Shown one piece after another: positions 22,420-58,083 of a stretch of DNA of 64,000 bases (positions are counted from its first letter, which is position 1; every line of letters begins with the position of its first letter). A program made the position numbers and the translations under genes. Under the pieces are notes generated by a model, which saw nothing but the letters and a program-made list of their open reading frames with translations, searched no databases and was not told the origin of the DNA. The stretch is taken from positions 1 to 64,000 of the forward strand of contig JAFEGX010000013.1 of NCBI GenBank assembly GCA_018239675.1, read 5' to 3'. Source of the DNA: Verrucomicrobiota bacterium. Its GTDB lineage: Bacteria; Verrucomicrobiota; Verrucomicrobiia; Opitutales; Opitutaceae.

Positions 22420-23895
22420 TCAACTTTTCCCCGCCACCGGCACACCTTCCCTCGTCACTGGTCCCTCGTCGTTCGTCCCTTTTTCTCCCTCTTCCGCCGG
22501 CGTCGCCGCCACGCCCAGCACGATCCAGAACACCACCGCGCCCATGGGTCCCTCGAGCACCACGCCGAGGCACGCGCTGGCCAGCATGATCCAGACGCTG
22601 CACCACAGTCCGGCGTCCAAGGGGTCGGCATGCACGGCGCGCCAGGTGCGCACGGCGATGATGCCGAGGACGACCAAAAAGGCCACGAGGCCAATGGCAC
22701 CCATGCGGGCGAAGATCGTGAGCAGCACGTTGTGGGGGCTGCGGGTGGAAAATTCCTCCGGACTGTCGGCGTAGTATTCCCGCACGAACCGCTCGGCGAG
22801 GTCGGCGCCGAATCCGAGGCCGACCCACGGGTTGCCTTCGACGGTCTCGTCGATCACCGCGCCCCACCAGACGCGCCGGAACTGGTTGTTGTCGCCCTTG
22901 TTCAGGCTCTCGGCGCTAAGGTAGGTGCGCTGACCCGAGAAATCGGCGAGGGAGAGCGCCCGCTCGTACACGCCATAGACTGGGGTTTTTTCAACGGGCT
23001 GGTTGAACGCCACCGCCCAGAGGAGGATTACCGCCGAGGCCAGGCCGCCGCAGCCGGCGAGGGTCGCCGCAAAGCGCCAGCGGCGCCCGACCAGCAGCCA
23101 GGTCGCGGCCAGCGCCAGCCCGAGCATCGACGCGCGATTGGTCGTGCCCAGCACCGCCGCGGCAAGAGCCATGCTGGCGACCGCGTTCCACCAGCGTCCG
23201 CCCGTTTCAAAGCGCATGAACGCCATGACTGAACCGATCGCGAGAAAGGTGCCGACCAAGTCGCCCTTGTAGTAGATTACCGGAATGCCGCGGATCGTGA
23301 GCGTGTCCATGAACAGCTCTGGATAGCGGTTGAAGAGCCAAGACAGCGGCAGGAGCACCACGCAGGCGATCACGAGGGTGTTGAAGAGCAGGCGGCGCGC
23401 GGCCGGCAGCCGGGCGGCCTCCTGCGCCAGGTAGAAGAAACCGGCGTAGTAGACGGTCGCAAAGTCGCGCAGCGCCACGAGCCCGTATGTGCGCACGTCG
23501 ACCACAATCCGCAGGCTCCCGAGACAGATCCACAGCAGCAGCGCCACGTTCAGCGCGTCGCGCCGGAACGGAAGTTCCCGCCGCCAGGCGCATTGGAAGC
23601 CGAACAGCAGACCCGCCAGCGCCAGCACGGCCTCGGCCGGGAGGATCGGTAGCGTCGGCGTCAGCGTGATCTGCGCAAAACCACGGCTGCCGACCACGTA
23701 GCCAAACACGACCGCCGCGAGCAGGACCGAGCCCAGCGGCAGCCGGATCCAGGGCGTGATCGCGAAGCCGAGGAGGACCGCCGCCACCAGCGCCGGCAGC
23801 GAATCGCCCTCGGCGATCGAGACTCCCATCCACACCGCCACCGCGACCGCCACGGTCGTAAACAGACGGGTGCGCCAGGCGGGAGTCAGCGGCAT
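22420..23895 (-). CDS. O-antigen ligase/polymerase (Wzy-type) family membrane protein
   Basis: 491 residues with about 11-12 hydrophobic segments and a long periplasmic loop around residues 295-400 containing YLSAESLNKGDNNQFRRVWWG and NPWVGLGFGADLAERF, typical of the Wzy_C (O-antigen ligase) family. The (N)PWVGLGFG motif with the following HNVLLTIFARMGAIGL is a family hallmark. In this position it is more likely the exopolysaccharide polymerase than an LPS ligase; this is inference from neighbouring glycosyltransferases and flippase. Start ATG 23895. Confidence 0.82.
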   Translation of the reverse strand: MPLTPAWRTRLFTTVAVAVAVWMGVSIAEGDSLPALVAAVLLGFAITPWIRLPLGSVLLAAVVFGYVVGSRGFAQITLTPTLPILPAEAVLALAGLLFGFQCAWRRELPFRRDALNVALLLWICLGSLRIVVDVRTYGLVALRDFATVYYAGFFYLAQEAARLPAARRLLFNTLVIACVVLLPLSWLFNRYPELFMDTLTIRGIPVIYYKGDLVGTFLAIGSVMAFMRFETGGRWWNAVASMALAAAVLGTTNRASMLGLALAATWLLVGRRWRFAATLAGCGGLASAVILLWAVAFNQPVEKTPVYGVYERALSLADFSGQRTYLSAESLNKGDNNQFRRVWWGAVIDETVEGNPWVGLGFGADLAERFVREYYADSPEEFSTRSPHNVLLTIFARMGAIGLVAFLVVLGIIAVRTWRAVHADPLDAGLWCSVWIMLASACLGVVLEGPMGAVVFWIVLGVAATPAEEGEKGTNDEGPVTREGVPVAGKS

Positions 23896-24007: not shown

Positions 24008-24038
24008 GTTGAGGGTTGAACGTTGAAAGTTGAACGTT
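24008..24038. repeat. GTTGAA quasi-tandem tract before a glycosyltransferase gene
   Basis: Successive variants of GTTGAGG/GTTGAAC/GTTGAAAG directly upstream of the GT2 gene. The same unit forms the arms at 55343-55447. The inverted partner is not obvious here; CTTTCAACTTTTCC at about 22425-22438 is the nearest counterpart and lies across the neighbouring gene. Confidence 0.5.
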
Positions 24039-31321: not shown

Positions 31322-32994
31322 ATTCCCCGCGCGAGACTCGCTTTTCCCCGTGGCTCAGCGCCGCCGCCTGCGCGGCGGCCGGGGCGATCCTCCTGCAGTG
31401 GTTCGGCAACGCCACGCGCGGCTACATCGACTCGGCGTCGCTGTTTTACTGGTGGGGTTTCCAATGGGTCAACCCGGCCTCGGAAACCGAGCACGGGCTC
31501 CTGATCCTGCCGCTGGCGATCGGGGTATTCATCCGGAATCTCCGGAATTCGGAATCCGAAATCCGGAATTCGTCATCCGTCCCCGGAAATCCGCGATCCG
31601 CGATCCGCAATCCGCAATCGGCCTGGCCCGCCTTCGCCGCGCTGGTCGCCGGTCTCTTGCTCCACGCCGTGGGCTTCGCGGCGCAGCAGACCCGCGTGTC
31701 GGTGGTCGCGCTGCTGGTGTTTCTCTGGGGCGTGCTGCGGCTGGGCGGCGGGAAACGCTGGGGCGACGCGGCGGTTTTTCCGGTGGCGTTCCTCGCGTTT
31801 GCGATTCCCTTCAACGCGCTGGACTCGGTCGGGTTCTGGCTGCGGCTCTGGGTCATCAAGGCCAGCGGCGCCGTGGCGCACGCGGCGGGCATCGGCGTGA
31901 TCCAGAACGGCACGCAGCTGCTCGCGCCGGACGGGCGGTACCAGTACGACGTGGCCGCGGCCTGCTCGGGCGTCCGCTCGCTGGTCGCCCTGCTCGCGCT
32001 CGCGGTGCTGTACGGGTATCTGACGTTTCGCGCCCGGTGGCGCCGCGCGTCGCTGGTGGCGCTGTGTTTTCCGCTGATCTACCTCGGTAACGTCGCACGG
32101 ATCCTGTCGGTGATCTTTGCCGCCCAGGCCGGGGGCCAGGCCTGGGGCGGGCGGGCCCATGATGTGATGGGCTACGGCGTTTTCGTCATCGTGCTGGGCG
32201 GCGTGATGCTCGCGGCGCGGCTGATGCCGGAGTCGGAGGCTCCGGCGGAGCAGGGGGCGGCGGAAGCGGAGCCGGAACGTGGATCGGGGAAGTCTGCCGG
32301 GCGCGGCGCATGGGCGGCGGGAGCGGTGGTGGCGCTGGCGGTGGGGGAGATGTTTTTCCTCGCGCACCTCGCGTCGCTGCCGCCGCGTGGCCAGGCGGGG
32401 GTGCGGCTGGCGCCTGACGGCCGGGATCCGGTCGAGTTGCCCCTGTTCCTCGGCACCGACTGGATCGGCCGGCGGGTGGACATCAGCCAGGTTGAGCGCG
32501 AAATCCTCCCGCCCGACACCGGCTATTCGCGCCGCGAGTACGTTGCGGTCGCCAATCCCCTCGACCGGGTCTACTTCTCCGTGGTGCTCAGCGGCCGCGA
32601 CCGCTCGTCGATTCACCGGCCCGAGCTGTGCCTGGTGGGGCAGGGATGGACGATCCTGCAGTCCGAGCAGCGGGATCTCGCGTGGTCGGGCGGGCGCTTT
32701 CCCGTGACGCTGCTGCACGTGCGACGGGAGGTGCGCACGCCGCGCGGCCGGGTGGTGGTGCCGCAGCTCGTTGCGTACTGGTTTGTCGGCGGCGACACGA
32801 TCGTCGGCACGCAATGGGCCCGGCTGGCGGTCGACGCCTGGAACCGGGTGATCCACGGCCGCGCCGACCGCTGGGCTTACATCCTGGTGCAGGCCGACGC
32901 CCGCGAAGGCGATGCGGCCGCTCTTGGCCGCATGCGGTCTGTCATGGATCAGGTGCTGCCTGACCTGATGCTTCCGGCGGCGGGTGCCAAGTGA
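31318..32994 (+). CDS. Exosortase fused to EpsI (DUF3485) domain
   Basis: 558 residues. The N-terminal ~300 residues are an eight-helix exosortase, a membrane transpeptidase-like enzyme that processes CTERM-tagged proteins. The catalytic triad candidates are Cys216 (AAACSGVRSL), Arg261 (NVARILSV) and His281 (RAHDVMGYG). After a linker and one more helix (about 332-350), residues ~370-530 form an EpsI domain (HRPELCLVGQGW). The loop at residues 72-102 is unusually long, Asn/Ser/Arg-rich and encoded by repetitive DNA. The start ATG overlaps the upstream glycosyltransferase stop. No obvious CTERM-tagged target was seen in the window. Confidence 0.9.
   Translation: MNSPRETRFSPWLSAAACAAAGAILLQWFGNATRGYIDSASLFYWWGFQWVNPASETEHGLLILPLAIGVFIRNLRNSESEIRNSSSVPGNPRSAIRNPQSAWPAFAALVAGLLLHAVGFAAQQTRVSVVALLVFLWGVLRLGGGKRWGDAAVFPVAFLAFAIPFNALDSVGFWLRLWVIKASGAVAHAAGIGVIQNGTQLLAPDGRYQYDVAAACSGVRSLVALLALAVLYGYLTFRARWRRASLVALCFPLIYLGNVARILSVIFAAQAGGQAWGGRAHDVMGYGVFVIVLGGVMLAARLMPESEAPAEQGAAEAEPERGSGKSAGRGAWAAGAVVALAVGEMFFLAHLASLPPRGQAGVRLAPDGRDPVELPLFLGTDWIGRRVDISQVEREILPPDTGYSRREYVAVANPLDRVYFSVVLSGRDRSSIHRPELCLVGQGWTILQSEQRDLAWSGGRFPVTLLHVRREVRTPRGRVVVPQLVAYWFVGGDTIVGTQWARLAVDAWNRVIHGRADRWAYILVQADAREGDAAALGRMRSVMDQVLPDLMLPAAGAK
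31531..31619 (+). repeat. ATCCGGAATTC/ATCCGCG quasi-repeat inside the exosortase gene
   Basis: About 89 nt made of variants of GGAATCC, GGAATTC, GATCCGC and CAATCCGC, matching the vocabulary of the intergenic repeats. It is in frame and encodes a low-complexity loop (IRN, SEIRN, SAIRN units) between two membrane helices of the exosortase. No stop codon arises in the used frame. Confidence 0.7.
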
Positions 32995-34734: not shown

Positions 34735-34838
34735 AATGGAAGTTGGTAGCTAGTAGTTAGCAGCCAGTAGCAATGCGCCTGAATCGCTGGGACCGTTTGC
34801 CTTGCTCCTAACTACCAACTACCAGCTACCAACTACTG
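34735..34838. repeat. GTAGCTAGTAGTTAG inverted quasi-repeat between rny and queF
   Basis: The left arm (34735-34770) repeats GTTGGTAG/CTAGTAG/TTAGCAG. The right arm (34805-34838) reads CTAACTACCAACTACCAGC and onward, an inverted version. The arms could pair over about 30 nt with mismatches around a 34-nt loop. The left arm begins 2 nt after the rny stop. Confidence 0.8.
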
Positions 34839-44660: not shown

Positions 44661-44708
44661 CCGAACATCGAACTCCGAACCTCCAACATCGAACGCCGAA
44701 CCTCGAAC
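44661..44708. repeat. GAAC-themed quasi-tandem tract
   Basis: Successive variants of CGAACTC, CGAACCTC, CGAACGC in the 220-nt gap between corA and the PTS IIA gene. The gap holds no recognised gene. The motif text matches other intergenic repeats in the window. Confidence 0.5.
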
Positions 44709-46188: not shown

Positions 46189-48033
46189 TCACTTCGCCCC
46201 GCTGACCTTGAGGCGCCACACGTTGTAGGCGCCGCCGCGGTTCGACAGGAAGAAGATCACGCCCTCCTCGGAGAACGACCACGCCGGCATCAGGTCGTCC
46301 GAGCCGTTGTGGGTGAGCCGCTGGAGATTGGTGCCGTCGGCGTTCACGAGGTAGATGTCGTTGTTGTGCCGGCCCTGGTCGTCGGTGCCGTGGTCGGACA
46401 CGAACAGCACGCGGGTGCCGTCGGGGCTGACCGACGGGTTGAAGCAGTTGCTCGTGCGGAAGTCCTCCTGGTTGAGCAGGGCGGTCTCGAGCTTGCCGTC
46501 GGCCGTGATTGAGTAGATCTGCTTTTTCTTCGAGTCCTCGTCGAGCCGGACGAAGTAGACCTTCTCGGCAAACACGTTGTTCAGCTCGAGCGCGGTGATG
46601 CTCAGCTGGGTCGGCAGCGAGCCGTCGAGGCGGATGCTGCTGATCTGGGACTCGGCGGTCGGAAAGTTCGGCTCGGTCGAGAGGTAGAAGAGCTGGCGGT
46701 TGCTGTCGCCGTATGACGGGCCGAAGTTGTAGCGGCTGTCGTTGGTGAGGCGGGAGATGCCGCCCGAGAGGCGGTTCTCGACGAGGTTCACGCGGAAGAT
46801 GTCGGGCTTGGTGCGGTCGGTGCGGTTGGACGCGAACACGAGGTAGTTGCTGCCGTCGTTGGCGATGTACGGCAGCGTGTCGGCGTACCGCGGGCCCTGC
46901 GTCAGCCGCGCCACGCCTCCGCCCACGTCGTCGGCGCGCTTGATCGAGAGGTTCGAGTAAAACCCGCCCTGGTCGTCGCGCTCCGTCAGGCTGAAGATGA
47001 TGTTCTGCCCGTCGGGCGACACGCAGAACGAGTTGATGCACTCGGCGCGGGAGGCGGTGTCCTTGACGTCCTGCCGCCCGAAGTTCGTGACGGGCTTCAG
47101 GTCGCTGATGATCTCGGCCGGCTCGCGCGTGTTGAGGATCGCGATGGCGTTGGTGCGCTGGAAGCGGAATGTGACGCCGGTCGGCGTCATGACCAGCGTC
47201 GGGTAGGTGAAGGTCGTCACGATCTCCGTGACGGGCTCGAGCTTGAAGCCCACGGCGAGGGTGGGGCGCGCGAAGTCGAGGGTCGCGGTGGCCGGCTGGT
47301 ACTTGGCGGGAATCTCGGCGGACACCTTGAACTGGGGCCACGGCGCGGTCTTGACCGCGCGCTGGAACGTGATCGGCAGCTTCAGCGGCGTCTGGCCGAC
47401 GACCTTGCCGTCGAGCCGGACCTCGGCGTTGAGCTCGGCCCCCTCGGCATTGACCGCGGTGAGGCGGTAGACGCGGTCCTCGCGCAGCAGCCCGAGGTCA
47501 ACCCGCGGCAGCGCGGCGGCGTCGGCGCTGAGCGTGACGGTCTCGCTCTGGTAGTTGGCCTTGGTGACGGTGACCGCCTTCGTCTTCCATGGGCTGGTCT
47601 TGTCGTCGCGGTCAAACACGACCTTCAGCCCGGTGAGCGGGGTCGTGCCGGCGGTCTTGCCGTCGATCGCGACCGTGGCGCCGTCGGGCGCCGAGGTGAA
47701 GTCGAAGCTCTTCGTCAGCGTCCGCGGCGCCAGCTGGGCCGAGATGCCCTTGGCCTCGGGCGAGGGCTGGAAGGTGAACGACTCCGGGAAATAGCCGTCG
47801 AGGCGGAACTCAACGGCGACGGGCTTGTTGCCCTCCGGGGTGTATTGCAGCGGCGTGGGCCCGAGCGTCTTGCCGTCGAAGATCGCGGTGGCGCCGGCGG
47901 GCGTGGTGGTGACGGGCAGCGGCGCGACGCAGCCGGCCGAGAGCAGGAGGGCGGCGAGGAGGCCGGAACCCAGGATCACCCGGGTGCGAAACAGCGAGGA
48001 CGAGACGGGACGGCGGACGGTGTTCATCTTCAT
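46189..48033 (-). CDS. PEGA-domain/TolB-like propeller lipoprotein
   Basis: 614 residues. Lipoprotein signal with a lipobox near LLLSAGC, three PEGA-like modules (TTPAGATAIFDGKTLGPTPL, SAPDGATVAIDGKTAGTTPL, NAEVRLDGKVVGQTPLKL) and then a C-terminal beta-propeller with PD40 repeats (CVSPDGQNIIFSLTE, SVSPDGTRVLFVSDHG). Probably outer-membrane or periplasmic, binding proteins or glycans. Start ATG 48033; ATG 48027 is an alternative. Divergent from the PP2C gene, sharing a 137-nt promoter gap. Confidence 0.8.
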   Translation of the reverse strand: MKMNTVRRPVSSSLFRTRVILGSGLLAALLLSAGCVAPLPVTTTPAGATAIFDGKTLGPTPLQYTPEGNKPVAVEFRLDGYFPESFTFQPSPEAKGISAQLAPRTLTKSFDFTSAPDGATVAIDGKTAGTTPLTGLKVVFDRDDKTSPWKTKAVTVTKANYQSETVTLSADAAALPRVDLGLLREDRVYRLTAVNAEGAELNAEVRLDGKVVGQTPLKLPITFQRAVKTAPWPQFKVSAEIPAKYQPATATLDFARPTLAVGFKLEPVTEIVTTFTYPTLVMTPTGVTFRFQRTNAIAILNTREPAEIISDLKPVTNFGRQDVKDTASRAECINSFCVSPDGQNIIFSLTERDDQGGFYSNLSIKRADDVGGGVARLTQGPRYADTLPYIANDGSNYLVFASNRTDRTKPDIFRVNLVENRLSGGISRLTNDSRYNFGPSYGDSNRQLFYLSTEPNFPTAESQISSIRLDGSLPTQLSITALELNNVFAEKVYFVRLDEDSKKKQIYSITADGKLETALLNQEDFRTSNCFNPSVSPDGTRVLFVSDHGTDDQGRHNNDIYLVNADGTNLQRLTHNGSDDLMPAWSFSEEGVIFFLSNRGGAYNVWRLKVSGAK

Positions 48034-48170
48034 GGGGAACAGTGGGGACGACACAACCGGGGACGCCCCGACGCCTAGCGAGGAGCCTGCCCAGGGGCAA
48101 GGTTTCATGTGCTCCCCACCCGACGCATCCGGTTTGATTCCGGGGGTCGCGGCGCCTAGCGTGCCCGCCC

Positions 48171-49031
48171 ATGGACGAACCGACCCTGGTGCATGTCGAC
48201 GGACTCACCGATGTCGGCATCCGGCGCACGAACAACGAGGACGCGTGGTGGGCGGGCCGGCCCGGCGGCGAGCACCGCCTGATGGCCCCCGGCCCGGCGC
48301 CGCTGCAGCTGGACGCGACGGAGGGCCCGGTGCTGGTGCTGGTGAGCGACGGCGTGGGCGGGGCCAATGCCGGCGAGGTGGCCAGCCAGATGGCGGTGAC
48401 GCTGGTGGTGGAAAGCCTGCGGGCCGAGCCGGCGCCGTTGCGGTCGAAGGACACGGCCGGCGCGGCGCTGCAGCAGGCGATGCGGGCGGCGCACCAGGCG
48501 ATTCTCCAACGGGCCGACGAACCCGGCTTCGACGGCATGGGCGCGACCCTGTCGGCGCTCGTGTTCACGGCGGACGGCCATGCCTGCTGGGCGCAGGCGG
48601 GCGACAGCCGCATCTACCTGCACCGCGCCGGCCGGCTCCGGCAGGTGAGCCGCGACCATTCGCCGGTGGGCCGACTGCGGCAGTCCGGCCGCCTGACCGA
48701 GGCGGAGGCCCGGAAGCACCCGGCGCGCAACCAGATCGACCTCAGCCTGGGCGACCGCCTGAATCCGTTCGATCCCGAGACCGGCGTGGAGGAGGCGAGG
48801 GACGGCGACGTTTTCCTGGTGTGCTCCGACGGCCTGAGCGACGGCCTGTGGGACCATGACCTCGCCAAGGCGCTCACCGCGGTGCGGGGGCCCGAGGACC
48901 TGCGCCCCGTGGTGGAGGGCCTGGTCGGCGGGGCGAAGAAGGCGTCGGGCCGCGACAACATCACGGCGGTGGTGGCGCTGGTGGGGCCGGCGAGGAAGGC
49001 GACGGCCCGGTGGCGGCGGATCTTCAGCTAG
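48171..49031 (+). CDS. PP2C-family protein serine/threonine phosphatase
   Basis: 286 residues, no membrane segment. PPM motifs: RRTNNEDAWW, VLVSDGVGGANAGE, QAGDSRIYLHRAG, LVCSDGLSDGLWD and GRDNITAVV, covering the metal-coordinating Asp residues. Likely counterpart to the Ser/Thr kinase encoded 1.6 kb downstream. Start ATG 48171. The following small gene lies close on the same strand. Confidence 0.92.
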   Translation: MDEPTLVHVDGLTDVGIRRTNNEDAWWAGRPGGEHRLMAPGPAPLQLDATEGPVLVLVSDGVGGANAGEVASQMAVTLVVESLRAEPAPLRSKDTAGAALQQAMRAAHQAILQRADEPGFDGMGATLSALVFTADGHACWAQAGDSRIYLHRAGRLRQVSRDHSPVGRLRQSGRLTEAEARKHPARNQIDLSLGDRLNPFDPETGVEEARDGDVFLVCSDGLSDGLWDHDLAKALTAVRGPEDLRPVVEGLVGGAKKASGRDNITAVVALVGPARKATARWRRIFS

Positions 49032-49114
49032 GCGAAACGGTGATGCGCCTTGCAGCCGGGCCGGGCCCGCGCATTTTCGAAGAACCCGGTCGGCTTCCTC
49101 TGGTCGAAATCCCC

Positions 49115-49483
49115 ATGGAATCATCAGGCGCGCAGGACATCGTCGCATTTCTCCAAGCCGCGGAGAAGTGGGTCGGCGACGAACTCGACCTCGGCAAGGT
49201 GCAGGTCGACGACCGCGTCCTCGTCCGCACGCAGAACACGAATTACCTGCTGCGCATGACCGGCCCGCACACTGCGCAGCTGGTCACCGACCGGCCCGAC
49301 CGGCCCGGCGGCGCGGTGCGGGTGGAGGGCTGCGCATTCGGCCGCTCGCACATGATCAAGCCGCACCACCTGTTTTGCGGCGGCAGCATGGAGTTCAAGG
49401 TCGCGGAGAGCCAGCAGACCTACACGACCTCGCCGATTGAGGCCCTCGAGTGGATCAGCCGGGATCGGACGAAGGATCGGTAA
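49115..49483 (+). CDS. Small conserved-looking protein of unknown function
   Basis: 122 residues from ATG 49115 (MESSGAQDIVAFLQAAEKWV). A longer start at 49043 or 49040 is possible, but the extra codons show weaker third-position GC bias. It looks beta-rich and soluble (VLVRTQNTNYLLRMTG, VRVEGCAFGRSHMIKPHHLF, GGSMEFKV). It has no recognised domain. It lies between the PP2C gene and the convergent cyclase gene, so it may belong to the signalling neighbourhood. Confidence 0.6.
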   Translation: MESSGAQDIVAFLQAAEKWVGDELDLGKVQVDDRVLVRTQNTNYLLRMTGPHTAQLVTDRPDRPGGAVRVEGCAFGRSHMIKPHHLFCGGSMEFKVAESQQTYTTSPIEALEWISRDRTKDR

Positions 49484-49601
49484 GCGGTGGACGGTGGGCC
49501 GTGAACGGTGGCTTGCCGCCAGCCCGCGCGGCGGCCGGAGCGCTCCGGCTTTTGACCCTCAACTTTCCACTCCCAACCTCCGGCCGCGCCAGCCGGCCGG
49601 C

Positions 49602-50462
49602 TCAGGCCGGCAGTTGGAACAGCGCGTGCGTCCCGCTGAAGCCGTCGAGAGGATGCTGGCCGAGCGGCTCGCAGCGGAACTCGGGCCCGAGCGCCGTCGC
49701 GGCGGCCTCGCTCAGGATCGTGTCGGTCCGGAGGGCCGACGACACCTTCTCCATGCGGAAAACGTAGATCACCTCGGGACCCGAGAGATTGTTCGCGCCG
49801 CCGGCGCCGCCGGCCATGGTGGTGCGGGCGTGGTGCAGCACAATGCGGAAGTCGGGATCGCGCGCCAGCTGCAGCGTGCGCAGCTGCCGCAGCGCGGCGT
49901 CGATCTGCTTCACGGTCTCGGGCGAGTGCTTCCAGTACGCAAAGAGCGCGTCGCCCAGAAACTTGTCGACGATGCCGCCGGCGGACTCGACGGCGTCGCG
50001 GCACTGGCGCAGCCAGGTGCCGACCTTCAGGCCGAGCTGGTCGGGCGGGAGCGAGCGGCTCAGCTGGGTGAACGCCTTGATGTCGAGCATCAGGAGCCAG
50101 CAAAGCGGGCTCGCGATCACCGCGACCGTGGCAGGCGCGTCGGTGTCGAGCGAAGCCGTCGCGGTGGAGCTCTCGTCGGCGCGGAACGTGAAGCTCTCGT
50201 CGAGGATGGTGACGATGTCGCCGTCGACGATGCGGCACGGGATCGTGACGCGCTTGCCGTTGCGGAGCGTGCCGTTGGTGCTGCCGAGATCGGCGAGCCA
50301 GTACTCGATGCCCGTGTCGGCCTGCTGCGCGTGGATGTGGGCGTGGCGCCGCGACGCGCCGGGCGACTGGAGGTGCACGGTGCTCGCATGCGCGCGGCCG
50401 AGGTAGCAGTTCGTCTCGAAGGCGATTCGGCTCCCGTCCTTCTTTTCCAGCCAGGCTCTCAT
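49602..50462 (-). CDS. FHA domain - class III nucleotidyl cyclase
   Basis: 286 residues. An N-terminal FHA domain (about 15-95) has GRAHASTVHL, GASRRHAHI and DLGSTNGTLRNGKRV, the phosphothreonine-binding signature. The C-terminal class III cyclase domain has metal Asp residues in LLMLDIKAFTQL and VDKFLGDALFAYW. The transition-state Asn-Arg pair is atypical: EVIYVFRMEKV keeps Arg but has Ile where Asn is expected. Activity is therefore uncertain. FHA suggests recruitment to phosphorylated partners, possibly the kinase encoded next door on the opposite strand. Start ATG 50462. Confidence 0.85.
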   Translation of the reverse strand: MRAWLEKKDGSRIAFETNCYLGRAHASTVHLQSPGASRRHAHIHAQQADTGIEYWLADLGSTNGTLRNGKRVTIPCRIVDGDIVTILDESFTFRADESSTATASLDTDAPATVAVIASPLCWLLMLDIKAFTQLSRSLPPDQLGLKVGTWLRQCRDAVESAGGIVDKFLGDALFAYWKHSPETVKQIDAALRQLRTLQLARDPDFRIVLHHARTTMAGGAGGANNLSGPEVIYVFRMEKVSSALRTDTILSEAAATALGPEFRCEPLGQHPLDGFSGTHALFQLPA

Positions 50463-50639
50463 GGGGTGCTCGGCGCTCGCGCCGTCCGGAGCATGCCGCA
50501 GGGTGGGCAATTGCGGCAATCGTAAAGATGGCTGGGTCCGTTCCTTCGGCGGGTCGCGGCGCCGCGGGCCACTGCCGGCTTGCCCCCGGCGCCGCGGCGC
50601 GGCAGATGGAGGCTTGCGGCGTGACCCAGCCCGCCCGCC

Positions 50640-53111
50640 ATGGCCGAGACCCCACCGACCCCGAATCTGCCCGCGGATGAAGGCGCCACCGTGCGGGCGC
50701 CCGCCCCGGAGGTGGTGTTCAACCGCTACGACCTGCTGTCCGAGCTGGGCAAGGGCGGCATGGGCATCGTCTGGCTCGCGCTCGACCGCGAGCTCAACGC
50801 CCGGGTTGCCCTGAAGTTCCTCCGCGAGGAGATGACCAGCGAGGACCACGCGCTGAAGGAGCTGAAGGGCGAGGTGCTCATCAACCGCGACCTGGCCCAC
50901 CCGAACATCATCAAGACTTTCGACTTCGTCACCGACTCGCGCCGGTCGGCGATCTCGATGGAGTTCGTCGACGGCACCAACCTCCACAAGCTCAAGCTGC
51001 AGCGGCCGCAGAAATGCTTCGAGGTGGAGGACGTCCGCCGGTGGATCTACCAGCTGTGCGACGCCATGCACTACGCGCACTCGCAGCGCGTCGTGCACCG
51101 CGACATCAAGCCGGCCAACCTGATGGTCAACGACCGCGGCGACGTGAAGCTGGGCGACTTCGGCATTGGGCGCACGGTGGCGGACACGGTGAACCGGGTG
51201 ACCCGCAACGCCGCGGGCACGCCGCCGTTCATGAGCCCGCAGCAGACGATGGGCGAGAAGGCCACGCCGGCGGACGACATCTACAGCATCGGGGCCACGA
51301 TCTATGACCTGCTGACCGGCGAGCCGCCCTTCTTCCGCGGCGCGATCCGGGAGCAGACACTGGCCAAGGTTCCGCCCAGCATGACGGAACGGCGCAAGGA
51401 ACTCGGCCGCACCGGGGAAACCATTCCGGAGGCGTGGGAGCGCGCCGTCGCCGCGTGCCTTGCCAAGGAGCCGGCCGGCCGGCCGCCCTCCGCCCACGCG
51501 ATCCGCGAGCTCCTCGAGGGCAAGTCCGCCGCGCCGTCGCCGCGCCGGGCCGGACCAATGCTGGCGGTCGCCGGGGTGGTGGTCGTGGCCGTCGGGGCCG
51601 CGGGCCTCTATTTCTGGACCCAGCGCACGGTCGAGTCCGAGCCGGCGGCCCGGGTCCGGACCAGCCCGGCGGTCGCCCGCCCGGCCGAGCCGGCCGCGAA
51701 GCCCGGCGACTCGGTGGTGGCGGCGCCGACCACGGCTCCGGCGACGGTGTCCCCGGCGAACGCGCCGGGCCCGGCCGCGGCGACGCCGGCGGGACTCAAG
51801 ACGCCCGTGGACGACCTGATTGAATCCGGCGGGATCACGCGCGAGGAGGGCGCGACGCTCAACAACGCGCTGCGCAGCGCGTATGGCGACGCGGAGAAGG
51901 CGCTGGCGACGCGCCTGCTGATCGACCACACGCTGACGCCGGACCTGTGGCGCGCGTACTCGGGATTGGTGCCGACCGGGGACCCGGTGCTCAAGGCGCT
52001 GCGCTCGACGCTGGCGGCGGGCGCGATCAAGGAGAACGAGTTTGCGTGGCTGCGCGCCGCGCTCGACGGCCGCAAGGGCGAGCCGGAGAAGAAGGTCGCG
52101 GCCCAGCTGGTGCTGGAAAAGATCCTGGCGCCGGAACAGTGGCGCACCCAGACGGACCTGTACCCGGAGCTGAAACGCGATCCGCTGATGGAGAAGATCA
52201 AGCCGTTCGTCACGGCCGGCGCGGTCACCGAGGCCGAGGGCCAGTGGCTGCGGTCGGCGCTGGCGGGCGAAAAGGCGGCGGCGGAAAACGCGCTGGCGGC
52301 GCAGTTGATCGACGCGAAGACCCTGACCACCGGCCAGTGGCGGGCGCGGACCGCCTTCAGCTACCTGCTCAAGGACGAGGCCGAGATCGACCCGAACCAG
52401 CTGCCACCGGCGCTGGACCTCGTGCTCGGCCCGAAGGCCGGCGTGCGGCTGCTGCGGATCGACGCGGGCACGGTCCTGTACGGCTCGCCGCGGGACGAAC
52501 TGGGCCGCCGGCCGAACGAGTCGGAGCCGCGGCGCGCCGAGATCGCGAAGCCGTTTTTTCTTGGCAAGTTCGAGGTGACCCAGGCGCAGTACGAGAGCCT
52601 GATGCCGCGCAGCCCGAGCTTCTGGCGGAACAATCCGACGTGGCCGATCGACCAGGTGGTGTGGCAGGACGTGACGGCCTATCTCGCCAAGCTGAACGCG
52701 ATCCTCGCCAAGCACTATGGCGGCGCGCTCGTCGCGGACCTGCCGACCGAGGAGGAGTGGGAGTACGCGTGCCGGGCGGGCACCGAGACCGCCTTCAACA
52801 ACGGCCGGTCCATCACCAGCATCGGCCGCGATCCCGCGCTCGACGGCCTGGCCAACTACGGCGGCTCGGAGAACGGTTCGCCGAAGCCCGTGGGATCATT
52901 TGCGCCGAATGCCTGGGGCCTCTACGACATGCATGGCAACGTGCTCGAGTGGTGCAAGGACCGGTTCCAGCGCGGCGGCCACTGGCAGTCGCGCGCCGCG
53001 GACTGTCGCGCCGCGGCCCGCACCCAGAGCAGCGCCGACGCCGGCCGGTCCAACAAGGTCGGCTTCCGGCTCGCTATTCGCTACCGCCCGCCCGGGGGCG
53101 GGAAAGAGTGA
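50640..53111 (+). CDS. Ser/Thr protein kinase - triple repeat - FGE-sulfatase domain fusion
   Basis: 823 residues. Kinase domain about 29-290: glycine loop LGKGGMGIVW, Lys59, HRDIKPANLM (Asp155), DFG Asp173, and AAGTPPFMSPQQ. Membrane helix about 306-326, then an Ala/Pro/Thr linker. Residues about 391-573 hold three ~55-residue helical repeats (each ending LTPDLWRAYSG, LAPEQWRTQTD or LTTGQWRARTA). The C-terminal domain, about 600-815, is SUMF1/FGE-like (FFLGKFEVTQAQYESLM, LPTEEEWEYACRAGTETAF, GNVLEWCKDRF, RGGHW). The kinase would be cytoplasmic and the repeats and FGE domain extracytoplasmic. Confidence 0.92.
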   Translation: MAETPPTPNLPADEGATVRAPAPEVVFNRYDLLSELGKGGMGIVWLALDRELNARVALKFLREEMTSEDHALKELKGEVLINRDLAHPNIIKTFDFVTDSRRSAISMEFVDGTNLHKLKLQRPQKCFEVEDVRRWIYQLCDAMHYAHSQRVVHRDIKPANLMVNDRGDVKLGDFGIGRTVADTVNRVTRNAAGTPPFMSPQQTMGEKATPADDIYSIGATIYDLLTGEPPFFRGAIREQTLAKVPPSMTERRKELGRTGETIPEAWERAVAACLAKEPAGRPPSAHAIRELLEGKSAAPSPRRAGPMLAVAGVVVVAVGAAGLYFWTQRTVESEPAARVRTSPAVARPAEPAAKPGDSVVAAPTTAPATVSPANAPGPAAATPAGLKTPVDDLIESGGITREEGATLNNALRSAYGDAEKALATRLLIDHTLTPDLWRAYSGLVPTGDPVLKALRSTLAAGAIKENEFAWLRAALDGRKGEPEKKVAAQLVLEKILAPEQWRTQTDLYPELKRDPLMEKIKPFVTAGAVTEAEGQWLRSALAGEKAAAENALAAQLIDAKTLTTGQWRARTAFSYLLKDEAEIDPNQLPPALDLVLGPKAGVRLLRIDAGTVLYGSPRDELGRRPNESEPRRAEIAKPFFLGKFEVTQAQYESLMPRSPSFWRNNPTWPIDQVVWQDVTAYLAKLNAILAKHYGGALVADLPTEEEWEYACRAGTETAFNNGRSITSIGRDPALDGLANYGGSENGSPKPVGSFAPNAWGLYDMHGNVLEWCKDRFQRGGHWQSRAADCRAAARTQSSADAGRSNKVGFRLAIRYRPPGGGKE

Positions 53112-53267
53112 CTAGTGACGAGTGACTAGTGACGAGTGGGGGCTAGCGGTGGGAGACCGCCGCTCCGCGGCTGGAGGTCACGGACAACTCGTCCGAACTA
53201 CCTCACTCGTCCTTCTCCGCAGGAGCTAGCTAGCTCTCTTCACTGGTCACTCGTCCCTCGTCACTCC
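53108..53267. repeat. GTGACGAGTGACTA inverted quasi-repeat at convergent gene ends
   Basis: The left arm (53108-53139) is GTGACTA/GTGACGA alternation beginning at the kinase-FGE stop codon. The right arm (53241-53267) reads CACTGGTCACTCGTCCCTCG, inverted. The cNMP-protein gene ends at 53276 on the other strand, so each arm adjoins a stop codon. Confidence 0.8.
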
Positions 53268-53275
53268 TGCGCGCG

Positions 53276-55270
53276 CTACGCGCGCAGGACGTCGAAGCCG
53301 GGGCCCTTGGCGGAGCTGAAGACCCGGCGGCCCGTGCCCTTGGCGCCGACCTGCTCGAACTGGAGGCTGATCATGAAATCCTGCGTGATGAACTTCAGGA
53401 AATCGCCCTTCGAGATGACCAGGCAGCTGCTGGGCATCGTCGCGACCACGCTGCTGGCGGAATTGCGGTTCTGCAGGAGGCCGAATTCGCCGTAGCTGTC
53501 GCCCTGCCGGAGCTTGCGGATCTGCTTGCCGTGCTGGGTGACCGAAAACTCGCCGCGGTGAACGAGGTAGAGGTTCAGATTCTCGGAGCCCTCGCGGATG
53601 ACGAGCTCGCCCTCGTTGAACTCCTGGATCACCGCGAGGCGCGCGAACGCGGCGAGCGTCTGCTGCGGCCATTCGCGCATCAGGGAGATATTCTGCAGGA
53701 AGCCGACCTTCTGCACCGCCTCCTCGACGTCGGCGCGCGTGAGGTGCGGCAGCACCAGGCGCTCGAAGGCCTCCTTGTCCAGACCGAGGAGGATGGCCGG
53801 GGTCGCGCTCCGGATCGAGCGCGTGCGCGGGCTGCCCCGGACGATGCCGATCTCGCCGAGCACGTCGCCCGGCACCATCTCCGCCACCGCCTGGGCGCGG
53901 CCGTCGTCATAATGCCGGATGACCTCGAGCCGGCCCGCGACCACGACGTACATCCGGTCGGCATCCTCGCCGACGCGGATGACGTACTGGTCCTTCTGGT
54001 ACTCGTAGGTCTTCATGGCGGCGGCGACCTCGCGGAGCGGCTCGGGCGGCAGGTCGCGGAAGAGGACGATCCCGGCCAGCAGCTTGGCGACCTCCTCGGG
54101 CGAGTGGCCGGTGATCTGCAGCCGGCGGCGCCGGGCGATGCGCTCGCGCCACCAGGCGCGGATCTGGCTGGCGATGATCCAGAGGACCAGCCCGACGATG
54201 CCGAGGATGACCGTCGCGAGGGCGCCGACCACGATGATGCCCGTGTAGCGCAGGCCGCCGGCGAGGTAGAACCGGTGCAGGAGGTCGACGGCATTGGCCT
54301 GGAAGAGCAGGCAGCCGACGACGAACACGAGCGCGAGCCAGACGATCGTGACGGACGTGCCCGCGAGCAGGAAGCGGCGGTCGGAGAACTGCTGCCGGGC
54401 CTGGGCGAGCAGGGCGAACGGCTTGCTGGCCGCGAACACGAAGCTCGTGCGGGTGGAGAGCCGCGGGTCGCGGAACAGCGCGCGCAGCAGGTCCCACATC
54501 GGGGTGCGCCACAGCGGCGACAGCTGGACGAACACCGCGGCGAGCAGCGGGAGCGAGTAGGTGGGGAACTTGATCGCGGCGGCGGCGGCGAGTGTGAACG
54601 CCGGAACCATCCGGACCAGGGCGACGTTGATCTCGGTCTCGCGTCCGCCCATGACCGCCTCCTCCAGCTCGACGCGGAAGCGCGGGAGCGGCGTGCGCCG
54701 CCACTGGAAACGCGGCCGGAACACCTGGCACTTGGCGCCCTTGAGCACGCAGGCCGCGAGGAGCTGCGCCAGGCTCGCGGTGGCGACGGCCAGCAGCGTG
54801 CCGCCGACCACGTCGACGGAGTGGCGCGGCACGTGGACGCCGGCGACGAGCAGGATGACGGTCGAGAGGCTCAGCAGCACCACCGATCCAATGCGGGCGA
54901 CCGGCGGCGGAATCTTCAGCCACCAGCGGACGGGACGGATCCACACGGGCGGGTCCTGGCCGACCACCTGCAGGATGCTGTGCTGGTACCCGCGGACCAC
55001 GAGGTCATAGAACTCGCGGAGCGGCGGGCAGTGGTCCTCGGAGATGATCTCGCAGAGCGCATCGGACACCGTGCGGCCCTGGGTGAAGCGCTGCAGCAGC
55101 TGCCACTGCGGCCGGGTGATCACGAGATACCGCGCATCCGAGTCGTTCTTGACGACGATCAGATTGCCGCGGGTCGTGGCGGTGCGCAGATCGGGAACCA
55201 GGCGCAGCGTCGCCGTGCCCAGCAGGGTGGGCAGATCCAATCGCGGTACGGCCTTGGGTCCGGTAGCCAT
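53276..55270 (-). CDS. Membrane protein with PqqD-like region and two cyclic-nucleotide-binding domains
   Basis: 664 residues. The N-terminal ~100 residues resemble PqqD-like modules (RYLVITRPQWQLLQRFTQG, TVSDALCEIISED). The middle, about 125-390, has several hydrophobic segments that may derive from an M50-like membrane protease fold but lacks HExxH. The C-terminal part has two cNMP/CRP-type domains: about 425-530 with VIRVGEDADRMYVVVAGRLE and GDVLGEIGIVRGSPRTRS, and about 540-650 with LVIREGSENLNLYLVHRGEF and GDSYGEFGLLQNRNSAS. The phosphate-binding cassette GE(I/F)(G)..R.S/R is reasonably preserved in the first. Start ATG 55270; ligand cAMP or cGMP not determinable. Confidence 0.82.
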   Translation of the reverse strand: MATGPKAVPRLDLPTLLGTATLRLVPDLRTATTRGNLIVVKNDSDARYLVITRPQWQLLQRFTQGRTVSDALCEIISEDHCPPLREFYDLVVRGYQHSILQVVGQDPPVWIRPVRWWLKIPPPVARIGSVVLLSLSTVILLVAGVHVPRHSVDVVGGTLLAVATASLAQLLAACVLKGAKCQVFRPRFQWRRTPLPRFRVELEEAVMGGRETEINVALVRMVPAFTLAAAAAIKFPTYSLPLLAAVFVQLSPLWRTPMWDLLRALFRDPRLSTRTSFVFAASKPFALLAQARQQFSDRRFLLAGTSVTIVWLALVFVVGCLLFQANAVDLLHRFYLAGGLRYTGIIVVGALATVILGIVGLVLWIIASQIRAWWRERIARRRRLQITGHSPEEVAKLLAGIVLFRDLPPEPLREVAAAMKTYEYQKDQYVIRVGEDADRMYVVVAGRLEVIRHYDDGRAQAVAEMVPGDVLGEIGIVRGSPRTRSIRSATPAILLGLDKEAFERLVLPHLTRADVEEAVQKVGFLQNISLMREWPQQTLAAFARLAVIQEFNEGELVIREGSENLNLYLVHRGEFSVTQHGKQIRKLRQGDSYGEFGLLQNRNSASSVVATMPSSCLVISKGDFLKFITQDFMISLQFEQVGAKGTGRRVFSSAKGPGFDVLRA

Positions 55271-57954: not shown

Positions 57955-58083
57955 AGAGTAGGGAGTAGCGAGTAGCGGGTAGTGAGCAGGAGATCAGCGC
58001 GAGAGGAGGGTGGGCGCGGGCGGCGGATCGTGGATGGTTGGATTCCCCATGCTCGCTACGCGCTACCCGCTACTCGCTACTAC
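57955..58083. repeat. GAGTAGCGGGTAG inverted quasi-repeat between gyrB and gyrA
   Basis: The left arm (57955-57990) alternates GAGTAG/GCGAGTAGCGGGTAG. The right arm (58051-58083) reads GCTCGCTACGCGCTACCCGC and onward, inverted. The right arm is 4 nt from the gyrB stop and the left arm is 10 nt from the gyrA start, so it fills the gap between cotranscribed genes. Confidence 0.8.

Follow-up and report, generated by a model that had tools for sequence, protein, structure and literature searches.

A conserved gene cluster linking a transmembrane Ser/Thr kinase to an FHA protein that bears a degenerate class III cyclase-homology domain in a Verrucomicrobiota genome

The window analysed here, which is the whole stretch of 64,000 nucleotides from contig JAFEGX010000013.1, belongs to a 3.85-Mb metagenome-assembled genome (MAG) of a Verrucomicrobiota bacterium. 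It contains a cluster of signalling genes in which a transmembrane Ser/Thr kinase is encoded next to a protein that joins an FHA domain to a degenerate class III cyclase-homology domain (CHD), hereafter FHA-CHD. Genes were identified by open reading frame (ORF) listing, codon-based gene calling and comparison with Pfam and NCBIfam models, and all those listed in an earlier note on this DNA were found to be present. The FHA-CHD gene is located on the reverse strand (49602..50462), its FHA domain at 50205-50402 (E 1.8e-14) and its CHD at about 49611-50111; the closest named record is from MAG RYN_614, with 83% identity over the FHA protein. An intergenic region of 177 bp (50463..50639) separates it from the divergent kinase gene (50640..53111, forward strand), which encodes a kinase domain (50727-51500, Pkinase E 4e-50), a transmembrane segment (about 51558-51614) and a domain similar to formylglycine-generating enzyme (FGE; 52449-53075, FGE-sulfatase E 3e-36). 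Downstream, on the reverse strand, is the gene of a membrane protein with two cyclic nucleotide-binding (CNB) domains (53276..55270; CNB1 53753-54004, CNB2 53378-53626; cNMP_binding E 8e-36, two stretches), which is followed by gyrA- and gyrB-like genes. On the other side are a small ORF (49115..49483, forward strand), the gene of a cytoplasmic, Stp1-like PP2C Ser/Thr phosphatase (48171..49031, forward strand, PF13672 E 4e-17) and, divergent from it across 137 bp (48034..48170), that of a PEGA/PD40 lipoprotein (46189..48033, reverse strand). The orphan/FHA-CHD and kinase/CNB pairs are convergent and, since the genes alternate in strand, the cluster is not an operon.

The cluster is real and evolutionarily conserved, and its clustering is not due to chance. 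Of 95 genomes, 10 have an FHA-CHD homolog, the window genome counted. Among the 14 genomes of the class that bear an FHA-CHD, which have only 2-15 kinase genes each (the window genome has two), a kinase domain lies within 5 kb of the FHA-CHD gene in 12, where 0.2 would be expected (P about 1e-20 if placement is taken as uniform). When each genus is represented by a single genome, the linkage holds in 9 of 10 (P about 2e-15), shared ancestry being not fully corrected for in either P value. Gene calls in low-GC relatives were obtained from per-genome codon models; in G047 and G201 the lipoprotein gene calls run over the kinase on the opposite strand, and the kinase positions were taken there from the kinase-domain survey.

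Gene order and orientation differ among lineages. In G003, of the same genus, the entire cluster is present on two contigs, and in G057, of another genus, FHA-CHD, kinase, CNB protein, PEGA lipoprotein, PP2C and a second kinase are encoded in a row. The order in G035 is PP2C, kinase, CNB protein and FHA-CHD, and in G071, of another family, PP2C, FHA-CHD and kinase genes adjoin. The divergent FHA-CHD/kinase arrangement is kept in G003, G057 and G241, and the divergent PEGA/PP2C arrangement also occurs in G003 and G057. Several members are missing in G010 and G026; G010 has the CNB and PP2C genes alone between gyrA and EIIA, without FHA-CHD or this kinase. Because order and orientation vary, the association of FHA-CHD with the kinase is not mere unbroken inheritance of one arrangement, with ancestry only partly removed from the figures. 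The conservation survey that had been set beforehand as the test of this neighbourhood thus found it kept beyond strain and genus.

The FHA domain has all the motifs of a phosphothreonine-binding domain (GR, SxxH and NG), and the contact residues G22, R23, S37, R38, H40, N63 and G64 are invariant in an alignment of 10 homologs. Between the window and G003, dN/dS is 0.11 for the FHA domain, 0.11 for the kinase domain and 0.24 for the CHD; this purifying selection in FHA and CHD makes it unlikely that they are pseudogenes and indicates that constraint on the CHD persists. A single transmembrane segment (residues 307-325) in the kinase puts the linker and the FGE-like domain on the extracytoplasmic side. 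No domains besides kinase and FGE were found in this protein, and no PASTA ectodomain of the PknB type. As to the cysteine pair of formylglycine-generating enzymes, only one Cys was seen by eye near the GGHW motif, so that the domain is probably a binding domain. The sensor regions of the partner kinases vary among genomes (FGE, PEGA, PEGA plus FGE, 3-keto-disaccharide hydrolase, or none) while kinase and FHA-CHD remain together.

The most specific partner of the cluster is the PEGA lipoprotein, which is found in 5 of the 95 genomes, all of them FHA-CHD positive (P 4e-6), and always inside the cluster. The possibility that it is an envelope partner, raised in the earlier note, is therefore strengthened by this specific linkage. 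The protein has two PEGA stretches (Pfam PEGA E 6e-16), a TolB-like PD40 propeller (PD40 E 5e-16; TolB-like match E 7e-25, below the cut-off) and the lipobox LLLSAGC. In G035, G024 and G241, where the lipoprotein was not seen, the cluster kinases bear PEGA in their own C-terminal part, which by domain-fusion logic suggests that lipoprotein and kinase ectodomain may work together. The PP2C has the motifs RxxNED, DGxGG, GDS and DN and matches the Stp1 model at E 1e-50, below that model's cut-off; close orthologs (54% or more) exist in five relatives.

The window CHD is too divergent to match PF00211 and is also missing from the list of PF00211 proteins of its genome. A family profile built from ten homologs matches solved adenylyl cyclases over the whole domain (CyaB, 3r5g, E 1.8e-13, positions 124-289), and a Microvirga plasmid gene with a cyclase annotation matches at E 4e-6. 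On the basis of these two matches the assignment of the CHD as a class III nucleotide cyclase by fold is sound. In the alignment its residues D127, K167, D171, N225, I232 and R236 stand at the canonical positions of D, K, D, T/D, N and R, so that both metal-binding Asp are kept, Asn replaces the base-selecting Thr/Asp and Ile replaces the transition-state Asn; the domain does not have the residue set of a class III cyclase as an enzyme. The five closest homologs share this pattern (D, K, D, N, I, R), the Lys is lost too in G047 and G201, and there is more variation in G053, G068 and G071, the last being almost wholly degenerate. The FHA class III cyclases found in other classes of Verrucomicrobiota have the same FHA plus CHD architecture and detectable homology but retain the six catalytic residues, with one exception at Arg, whereas the window clade has lost two. 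In a tree the window-type FHA-CHD proteins form a clade apart from the canonical ones with strong support, and six of the window genome's own cyclases are canonical at all catalytic residues. We infer that catalysis by FHA-CHD was lost or strongly altered in this lineage. Catalytically inactive cyclase domains are present in other bacterial signalling systems, where nucleotide-binding or dominant-negative roles have been proposed (PMC7159879). A second FHA-CHD of the window genome (contig 11, L121:9531-10280) is degenerate almost throughout, and its gene lies immediately upstream of the one for a receiver-domain cyclase with a strong PF00211 match.

In the CNB membrane protein, CNB1 contains the phosphate-binding cassette of a cyclic nucleotide receptor, with GE and Arg (GEIGIVRGSPRTRS). 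The phosphate-binding Arg482 is also retained by most members of the clade of window-like CNB proteins, G026 excepted, and is absent from CNB2. By hhalign, the N-terminal 400 residues are colinear with site-2 proteases of the PqqD-M50 family over 234 columns (probability 65%, E 6e-5), and an RseP control reached a probability of 0.16%. The PqqD-like N-terminal part, the M50-like core and the position of the NPLxRxDG motif align with the PqqD-M50 proteins, which are HlyD-linked and site-2 protease-like. Unlike them, the CNB protein lacks HExxH and has gained two CNB domains. HExxH occurs in none of 27 homologs of the CNB protein, a Pfam scan of the same 27 gave neither M50 nor PqqD, and tblastn of the membrane part against plasmids gave no match. 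The protein thus resembles M50 site-2 proteases in fold only, without their HExxH and DG motifs, and it is suggestive, not settled, that its membrane part is a dead PqqD-M50 site-2 protease fold. A commoner CNB membrane paralog (L096:7719-10023 and similar loci) has lost the CNB1 arginine and is encoded downstream of a single-domain response regulator gene, as checked with Pfam in L096.

According to the earlier note, the CNB protein could read the product of the cyclase. A CNB gene does recur within 10 kb of FHA-CHD, in four of the seven genomes that have both (the window genome G000, G003, G057 and G035; P 1e-7), the one in G035 being of a different CNB subtype. In G171 and G308, which belong to another class, the gene of a canonical FHA-cyclase is immediately preceded, on its own strand, by a stand-alone CNB gene (L174:251-1698 and L163:8310-9779). 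Because CNB genes recur beside FHA-CHD and FHA-cyclase genes, it is credible that FHA-cyclase and CNB receptor were historically linked. The pathway can not be considered self-contained, as had been suggested, since the window genome encodes 10 PF00211 cyclases besides the window CHD and four CNB proteins, three of them elsewhere, since CNB adjoins FHA-CHD in no more than four of the seven relatives with both, and since the small ORF is confined to 3 of 95 relatives and is unlinked in one of these.

From the domains, residues, linkage and co-occurrence described above, we are inclined to favour, with restrained confidence, a membrane-spanning Ser/Thr phosphorylation module with phosphothreonine docking whose cyclase output has been eroded or repurposed. 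The transmembrane kinase would sense the envelope via its FGE-like (C-type-lectin-like) ectodomain, with the PEGA/propeller lipoprotein as probable extracytoplasmic partner, and would phosphorylate threonines on itself or on other proteins; the FHA domain of FHA-CHD would dock on the phosphothreonine, with the system reset by the PP2C phosphatase. The ancestor of the CHD was probably a nucleotide cyclase phospho-regulated via its FHA domain. At present the CHD is more likely a nucleotide- or protein-binding output, or a subunit of another cyclase, than the main source of cyclic nucleotide, and the CNB membrane protein probably receives cyclic nucleotide through CNB1, mostly from other cyclases. 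Of this interpretation, the kinase-FHA arm has the strongest backing and is well supported by comparison among genomes; the cyclase-CNB arm is probably eroded in this lineage and is uncertain. Only tentatively do we suggest, in addition, that the cyclase is now a pseudoenzyme reader or scaffold under selection, with kinase, phosphatase, lipoprotein and a CNB receptor on a dead site-2 protease retained, and that a series from active to pseudo-cyclase can be traced within one phylum.

Some observations weigh against this module. The active adenylyl cyclase Ma1120 has a natural Ala at the transition-state Asn position, and placing Asn there cut its activity (PMC4215837); therefore Ile alone is no proof of inactivity in the window CHD. 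The FHA-CHD tree has long branches, with G053, G068 and G071 of uncertain placement. AlphaFold models from two-sequence alignments reached a pLDDT of only 38 (FHA-CHD) and 34 (CNB protein) and were not taken into fold searches, and gene linkage is the single line of evidence for a contact between lipoprotein and kinase.

The circuit proposed in the earlier note, in which phosphorylation by the kinase recruits an active FHA-cyclase and the adjacent CNB membrane protein reads the product of this cyclase, seems unlikely to us. It agrees with the invariant phosphothreonine contacts of the FHA domain, with the fact that the CHD still has its two metal Asp together with the substrate Lys and the Arg, and with the recurrence of CNB genes both beside FHA-CHD and upstream of the canonical FHA-cyclases of G171 and G308. 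It also has precedents, in Ma1120, which works without the Asn, and in Xanthomonas XC_0250/XC_0249, where the linkage of a cyclase gene to that of a CNB effector is an established arrangement (PMC3770947); the Xanthomonas pair differs in that it consists of an active guanylyl cyclase and a CNB-GGDEF effector and has no kinase/FHA arm. Nevertheless the base-selecting and transition-state residues are both replaced across the close clade, with further losses in relatives, which leaves control of a cyclase by the kinase uncertain. The other 10 cyclases and three CNB proteins of the genome likewise speak against such a circuit, as does G010, where the CNB gene adjoins that of PP2C with neither FHA-CHD nor this kinase.

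In mammalian adenylyl cyclase, the C1 half has both Asp and has lost the transition-state Asn and the base selector. FHA-CHD, with a similar residue pattern, could likewise serve a heterodimeric cyclase as its C1-like, metal-donating half; it would pair with a canonical cyclase of the genome and, by docking on phosphothreonine, bring this partner to the kinase. The degenerate second FHA-CHD just upstream of the receiver-domain cyclase would fit such a pairing, but the cluster encodes no partner and the comparable cyclases of the genome are complete and need none, so we regard this as improbable. It is very unlikely that the genes just adjoin in a region rich in signalling genes and are not functionally coupled: the alternating strands, the lack of an operon and the different composition in G010 and G026 would suit it, but the kinase/FHA-CHD linkage persists across families despite rearranged order and orientation, the PEGA lipoprotein is found only where the cluster is, and both divergent pairs are kept in another genus.

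The phosphorylation module that we favour has counterparts among known systems. The clustering of kinase, phosphatase and FHA genes is on record (PMC1262709), and as in Mycobacterium PknB-PstP-FhaA/FhaB a transmembrane Ser/Thr kinase, a PP2C and an FHA protein are here encoded together. Unlike the mycobacterial PknB clusters, this one has no PASTA ectodomain, has its FHA domain fused to a CHD and includes a CNB membrane protein, and no RodA or penicillin-binding protein genes were found among the flanking genes examined. Type VI secretion PpkA-PppA-Fha also combines kinase, PP2C and FHA reader in one module, in which Fha binds a phosphothreonine of a membrane protein (PMC3953482). FHA-CHD is a different type of protein, and there are no Tss genes among the annotated flanking genes, no genome-wide search for them having been made. 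In Chlamydia a kinase is joined to a NirV/FGE domain (PMC1262709), the same type of fusion as here, where it is additionally linked to a PEGA lipoprotein and FHA-CHD. No description of an FHA-cyclase/kinase/CNB circuit was found in the open literature, and a connection from Ser/Thr kinases to cyclic nucleotides is poorly documented in bacteria. As the family spans apparently active FHA-cyclases with adjoining CNB genes, intermediates, and residue-depleted forms on the same type of kinase, phosphothreonine control of cyclase output, and the role of a pseudo-cyclase after loss of catalysis, become directly testable.

The small ORF between the PP2C and FHA-CHD genes encodes an orphan protein of 122 aa without a Pfam or NCBIfam match. 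Its dN/dS of 0.12 against one close relative indicates a real gene. As a member of the module it was rejected on its distribution, since it occurs in 3 of the 95 genomes and in G057 lies unlinked on another contig, and it is probably a passenger.

Short tandem arrays with a period of 7 or 14 bp were observed in the window, at 22448-22480, 24015-24038, 31531-31619, 34810-34836, 44662-44708, 53106-53138, 53236-53266, 57956-57990 and 58052-58081. Each site has a distinct 7-bp word, several are intergenic, and some are partly inverted across a gap.

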